Of a stretch of 64,000 bases of DNA, positions 19,751 through 20,091 are shown in pieces. Numbering within the stretch: position 1 is the first letter of the stretch; each line of letters starts with the position of its first letter. This stretch comes from Candidatus Aenigmatarchaeota archaeon. GTDB taxonomy: Archaea; Aenigmatarchaeota; Aenigmatarchaeia; CG10238-14; SCSR01. The position numbers and the translations under genes are program-made. The stretch spans positions 17,995-81,994 of the forward strand of contig JACPJT010000004.1 of the NCBI GenBank assembly GCA_016187415.1, in the 5' to 3' direction. The notes beneath the pieces are model-generated. The model was not told where the DNA came from. It was given only the letters and a program-made list of their open reading frames with translations, and did not search any database.

Positions 19751-19847
19751 ATCCTTGATTTTTTATGAACTTTCGGGAATTTCTAACCCGTATCCTATTC
19801 CCAGTTTATGTATGCGCCGACTGGGATTTGAACCCAGCTCCTCAGCT

Positions 19848-19859
19848 AACTTCGGACCA
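19848..19859 (-). other. Predicted 12-nt canonical tRNA intron (37/38)
   Basis: The intron TGGTCCGAAGTT gives a textbook bulge-helix-bulge: CTTC pairs with GAAG, three-nt bulges CA^T and TT^A flank it, and only five nt close the hairpin. Its position after the nucleotide following the anticodon is the standard archaeal intron site. Confidence 0.82.
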
Positions 19860-19867
19860 TGGAAGGC

Positions 19868-19879
19868 TTGCACAAATTT
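19868..19879 (-). other. Predicted 12-nt non-canonical tRNA intron (28-30)
   Basis: The segment AAATTTGTGCAA splits the 5' strand of the anticodon stem. A relaxed bulge-helix-bulge (GACA/TGTG, three pairs and one mismatch) can form. The location matches the intron in the tRNA-Ser gene to within one nucleotide. Confidence 0.68.
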
Positions 19880-19944
19880 TGATGTCCTACCAGGCTAGAC
19901 TATCGGCGCGTGTTTAATTTATATTGTATGCACTATTTTAAATT

Positions 19945-20091
19945 ATGTCTGATGAAGAGATTATACGGAAAAGGATTAAAAAGCTGAAGGGAATCCATCC
20001 CGAACTGGACGAGAAGCAGCTTGAACGGGAGCTCATTCCTCTATCCGGCGAAGAAATCGGGATAAAAACGGTTAAGAAGAAAAGAAATTAA
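19945..20091 (+). CDS. Small charged protein
   Basis: A 48-residue open frame, MSDEEIIRKRIKKLKGIHPE, then LDEKQLERELIPLSGEEIGI and a basic tail KTVKKKRN. It reads as two charged helices. It starts right after the tRNA-Gly promoter side and is followed 23 nt later by the SemiSWEET gene on the same strand, so they may be co-transcribed. No family recognised; no clear ribosome-binding site. Confidence 0.5.
   Translation: MSDEEIIRKRIKKLKGIHPELDEKQLERELIPLSGEEIGIKTVKKKRN

Follow-up and report, generated by a model that had tools for sequence, protein, structure and literature searches.

A tRNA-Gly(UCC) gene with two 12-nt introns in a Candidatus Aenigmatarchaeota genome

Can a 97-nt element on the minus strand of an archaeal genome (19813..19909) be a working tRNA-Gly(UCC) gene interrupted by two 12-nt introns, and how unusual would such a gene be? 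The element lies in a 64,000-nt stretch of Candidatus Aenigmatarchaeota DNA (the window), which is part of contig C2 of the source genome (G000; 735 kb, 10 contigs, 93.9% complete).

Parse of the gene

The tRNA-Gly(UCC) gene was delimited from the sequence, Rfam and an intron solver as a 97-nt precursor in which CCA is not encoded. At a cut-off of 29 bits, the Rfam tRNA match at 19813-19909 (minus strand) scores 43. The solver scores the mature cloverleaf jointly with the bulge-helix-bulge (BHB) motifs, and its top parse is GCGCCGATAGTCTAGCCTGGTAGGACATCA[aaatttgtgcaa]GCCTTCCA[tggtccgaagtt]AGCTGAGGAGCTGGGTTCAAATCCCAGTCGGCGCA, where the outer square brackets mark introns at 29/30 and 37/38. Exon 1 (GCGCCGATAGTCTAGCCTGGTAGGACATCA, 19880..19909, minus strand like all parts of the gene) is 30 nt long, covers mature positions 1-29 and provides the acceptor 5' strand, the D arm and the start of the anticodon stem. 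Intron 1 (AAATTTGTGCAA, 19868..19879), 12 nt at position 29/30 with a relaxed BHB, separates it from the 8-nt exon 2 (GCCTTCCA, 19860..19867, mature positions 30-37), which contains the anticodon TCC (34-36; 19861..19863). Intron 2 (TGGTCCGAAGTT, 19848..19859) is also 12 nt and lies at the canonical position 37/38. Exon 3 (AGCTGAGGAGCTGGGTTCAAATCCCAGTCGGCGCA, 19813..19847) adds 35 nt, mature positions 38-73, with the remainder of the anticodon arm, the variable region, the T arm, the acceptor 3' strand and A73. A test for a split or permuted tRNA gene was negative, as the exons are contiguous and in order inside the 97 nt.

The best parse (12+12) scored 25.5 and the runner-up 20.6. When the middle 46 nt were dinucleotide-shuffled 1000 times and the three remaining arms (acceptor, D and T) left unchanged, the observed score was matched by 0/1000 shuffles and a 12+12 parse arose in 10/1000. 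An intron-free fold better than this parse was sought with the solver and the shuffles, and none emerged. The earlier note had proposed that a 73-nt tRNA is reached only by removing two 12-nt introns, and these results bear it out. The spliced 73-nt cloverleaf has every stem intact and scores 27.4, with most clear tRNAs of the same genome at 26.6-27.4. RNAfold places the minimum of the mature RNA at -31.5 kcal/mol in a structure other than the cloverleaf (-28.5); for unmodified tRNAs the cloverleaf is often not the RNAfold minimum. Glycine identity is indicated by the UCC anticodon, C35 and C36, A73 and a Gly-type body, and the arms are those of the genome's Gly CCC and GCC genes. On sequence grounds there is good support for reading 19813-19909 as a functional tRNA-Gly(UCC) gene that carries two short introns.

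Splicing motifs and competing readings

Both introns follow one plan of 1 bulge nt, a 5-nt loop, a 4-nt helix strand and 2 bulge nt, and their size of 12 nt may be explained because this is near the smallest element still forming the motif. In intron 2 (T GGTCC GAAG TT), GAAG pairs with CTTC (32-35) around the inner loop GGTCC, giving the 4-bp central helix and the 3-nt bulges (CA^T and TT^A) of a BHB. The earlier note had described this 37/38 intron, with its CTTC/GAAG helix and 5-nt inner loop, exactly. In intron 1 (A AATTT GTGC AA), GTGC pairs with nucleotides 24-27 (ACAU). The central helix ACAU/GUGC consists of three pairs and one A.C, at the helix end, the outer helix AGG (21-23) / CCU (31-33) is complete, and a cut after A29 leaves the 3' bulge AA^G and the 5' bulge CA^A. 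In isolation this motif is barely stable and is the weaker of the two. The intron had earlier been placed near 28-30, which the parse narrows to 29/30; it was rightly seen to split the anticodon stem, but the relaxed BHB that it forms itself was overlooked. Neither intron has an inner helix, which makes both motifs bulge-helix-loop and not full hBHBh'.

The same gene and product would also result if intron 1 were cut at 28/29 (TC^AAAATTTGTGCA^AGC). Such a cut is conceivable because the precursor free-energy fold, in which the intron 1 hairpin does form, favours a register shifted by one (ACA/UGU), and the mature RNA would be identical. The outer helix is lost in the shifted register, however, and in same-site introns elsewhere the 29/30 register gives four pairs plus the outer helix. 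We leave the 28/29 cut a small chance and retain 29/30.

The other same-site introns come from related loci and genomes. Divergent from the tRNA-Gly(UCC) gene lies a 48-aa ORF of unknown function with 0 Pfam matches (19945..20091, plus strand), which is also found in G004 and G006 and serves as the locus marker on which the equivalence of their tRNA-Gly(UCC) genes rests. Parsed by the same solver rule, the G004 gene has introns of 12+11 nt. Its 11-nt intron 2, AGTTAGGAGAT, is almost wholly changed in sequence while the helix is retained (CTTC/GAAG to CTTC/GGAG), U34-A having become U34-G. In the G006 gene the 29/30 intron measures 15 nt (ACAC/GUGU), a second intron of 31 nt occupies 53/54 (CTCG/CGAG), and 37/38 is uninterrupted. 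In the source genome itself, tRNA-Gly(GCC) (L019) carries a 15-nt intron at 29/30 with four pairs, ACAU/GUGU. L040 (12 nt) and L041 (15 nt) likewise have introns at 29/30. The G004, G006 and Gly(GCC) comparisons show that the sites are real and that introns turn over within the genus, being gained, lost and altered in sequence at one tRNA locus among its species. The tRNA-Gly(UCC) genes of G005, G007 and G003 are intron-free and stand without the 48-aa ORF beside them, and we do not count them as intron losses at this locus.

The 29/30 introns of Gly and Ser tRNAs (L019, L026 and L037 in G000; L229 and L232 in G005; L255 in G006) often end in GUGUAA or GUGCAA. In part these ends follow from the need to pair with nucleotides 24-27, and possibly they also reflect a transposed intron family.

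Could the gene be a decayed tRNA pseudogene carrying chance inserts? Intron 1 lacks one of its four central pairs, and tRNA fragments can occur in archaeal genomes. Yet the spliced stems are undamaged, both introns persist at the G004 locus, and the intron 2 helix there has been preserved through a change. The earlier note had named a second intact tRNA-Gly(UCC) as the sign of a pseudogene; none is present among the 39 tRNA hits of this 93.9% complete genome, where the glycine genes are CCC (intron-free), GCC (one intron) and UCC (two introns). Pseudogene status is unlikely since this is the only tRNA-Gly(UCC) found in the genome, and with all of the evidence together we hold it to be very improbable. 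GGA, the glycine codon for which the genome has this tRNA alone, accounts for 124/394 glycine codons in 14 window genes.

Another reading is that the 37/38 intron alone is removed and the 29/30 insert AAATTTGTGCAA retained, or that one different single intron is used. In its favour, the best such parses reach 20.5-20.6 and the motif at 29/30 is weaker than that at 37/38. But every single-intron parse has a broken anticodon arm and a score about 5 lower, and the same genome's Gly(GCC) and G006 Gly(UCC) both have a 29/30 intron whose helix shows all four pairs; we regard this reading as extremely unlikely. That the gene encodes tRNA-Ala(TGC), or some other tRNA free of introns whose anticodon arm is odd, is hardly credible, since the tRNA-Ala(TGC) reported by ARAGORN (bacterial mode) was fitted to 97 nt without modelling two introns, an intact 74-nt tRNA-Ala(TGC) (L001) is already in the genome and the body of the gene is Gly-like, and the call was rejected as an artefact of ignored introns.

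Very probably, then, this is the sole, working tRNA-Gly(UCC) of the Candidatus Aenigmatarchaeota (DPANN) genome, with EndA excising its two introns and RtcB joining its three exons. The gene, its parse, the motifs and their conservation can be read directly in the genomes, and so can the genes for EndA and RtcB. The transcript would form a bulge-helix-loop at each intron: that at 37/38 lies in the anticodon loop, and that at 29/30 recruits nucleotides 21-27 and 31-33. A single EndA-type splicing endonuclease would remove both introns, and RtcB would ligate the three exons into the 73-nt tRNA. We infer the transcription, cutting and joining of this RNA, and likewise the order in which its introns are removed.

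Intron size and multiplicity

To judge how unusual the gene is, we collected the confident introns of G000, G004, G005 and G006 (n=64). The commonest length is 12 nt (14 introns), followed by 13 nt (11), with a median of 14; as genes of G004-G006 were included only if longer than 77 nt, these figures describe intron size and not the share of intron-bearing tRNAs. Nine genes among the confidently parsed tRNAs of the four genomes have two introns. One is the tRNA-Thr(CGU) of G005 (L225), whose introns are also 12+12 nt, at 22/23 (D arm) and 37/38, with four-pair helices in both. The earlier note had considered two near-minimum introns in one tRNA unusual. With 12 nt the modal size in the genus, two-intron tRNAs recurring and a further 12+12 gene in G005, the supposed rarity of this arrangement finds no support. 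In addition, the tRNA-Phe(GAA) of G000 (L027) is probably interrupted both in the D arm (15 nt) and in the variable region (22 nt), though its parses compete.

Published archaeal tRNA introns measure 11-129 nt, their medians falling between 12 and 25 nt (PMC4090602), and up to three per tRNA are known (PMC4090602, PMC4033280, PMC8450103, PMC11291895). The 29/30 site and multiple introns per tRNA have likewise been described in archaea (PMC4090602, PMC8450103, PMC11291895). In position, size and multiplicity the tRNA-Gly(UCC) introns are inside the published range. Like the multi-intron tRNAs of the Thermoproteales (e.g. Pyrobaculum), ARMAN-1 and -2, and Atabeyarchaeia, the gene combines 37/38 with a second listed non-canonical site (29/30), each with a BHB or relaxed motif. 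Unlike them, both of its introns are 12 nt, without an inner helix, and the exon between them is 8 nt. The tri-split tRNA-Gly of Caldivirga maquilingensis is also a UCC isoacceptor with two interruptions, one at 37/38 (PMC4090602), but it is assembled in trans from separately encoded pieces, with its other break at 25/26, whereas the Aenigmatarchaeota gene is contiguous.

In the literature on Aenigmarchaeota, DPANN and Micrarchaeota, of which our coverage was incomplete, we found no description of tRNA introns for Aenigmatarchaeota. This DPANN phylum would join the archaea with multi-intron tRNAs. Its many 11-13-nt introns without an inner helix offer a natural test of the minimal RNA for the archaeal splicing endonuclease. 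A two-intron tRNA-Gly(UCC) is of a kind already known in archaea; the alpha4-like kind of EndA found alongside such introns is the less expected aspect.

Splicing endonuclease and ligase

EndA is encoded by one gene of about 189-190 aa with N and C domains (both Pfam domains). It matches the M. jannaschii EndA at 3e-30, which places it clearly in the EndA family, and is 84-88% identical to EndA of groundwater MAGs labelled Candidatus Aenigmatarchaeota. PF01974 has one match over cut-off in each of the family genomes (15/15), and PF02778 has one match in the source genome. By gene structure the enzyme is alpha4-like, with one gene, single N and C domains and no beta gene. Neither the three fused units of an epsilon2 enzyme nor the second subunit gene of an (alpha-beta)2 enzyme was found, the match being single.

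The alpha4 endonucleases are said to cut canonical motifs only (PMC4033280), and broad specificity has been tied to the CSL in Crenarchaea and the ASL in ARMAN-2 (PMC12397907). The ARMAN-2 epsilon2 and crenarchaeal (alpha-beta)2 endonucleases likewise belong to genomes with many relaxed non-canonical introns, and share with the Aenigmatarchaeota EndA a short loop that follows the conserved YG motif and has a Lys at the equivalent position. Unlike those enzymes, the Aenigmatarchaeota EndA is one gene and alpha4-like, and its loop is four residues longer than that of M. jannaschii. These four extra residues are found in the family EndA at the ASL/CSL position (loop YGKPLPEEEPNR), relative to M. 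jannaschii and most other Aenigmatarchaeota. A second insertion, KLKRGPK, adjoins the active site and is common across the phylum.

We considered the four-residue insertion as the cause of the intron richness and found this unsupported by four Aenigmatarchaeota genomes outside the family. Their tRNA hits are also often longer than 100 nt, and in one of them (G016) the parsed introns include 29/30 and D-loop sites. Because non-canonical introns are present in relatives that lack the four residues too, the insertion is not the whole cause. We tentatively suggest that the single-gene, alpha4-like EndA may cut relaxed bulge-helix-loop introns at many tRNA positions by means of its own loops (YGKPLPEEEPNR and KLKRGPK), its broad specificity having been gained separately. 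The suggestion, which we hold to be somewhat less likely than not, would run contrary to the canonical-only rule for alpha4. If a single alpha4-like EndA does process these introns, the accepted view that intron diversity goes with enzyme type will have to be amended.

RtcB is also encoded in the genome. Its matches fall into two halves, separated by about 1.4 kb within a single 960-aa frame (G000:C2:140925-143642), a pattern suggestive of an intein-bearing tRNA ligase. An ORF with a LAGLIDADG domain (PF14528, 2.9e-07; L068:252-1211) lies between the EndA gene and tRNA-Phe(GAA), and its frame overlaps both.

A strict T-arm pattern was tried as a tRNA finder and dropped, as nearly all tRNAs were missed. 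In G016 (CP066684.1, Aenigmatarchaeota NC_groundwater_134), a record titled chromosome, only 8 Rfam tRNAs exceed the cut-off. In at least two cases there, the Met CAT and Gly CCC tRNAs (L268 and L269), the T loop is apparently interrupted by introns of about 50 nt. These T-loop introns have a common hairpin, AAACGCG(A/C)AGCGTTTCAGGA, and G016 contains three copies of the 11-mer GCGTTTCAGGA.
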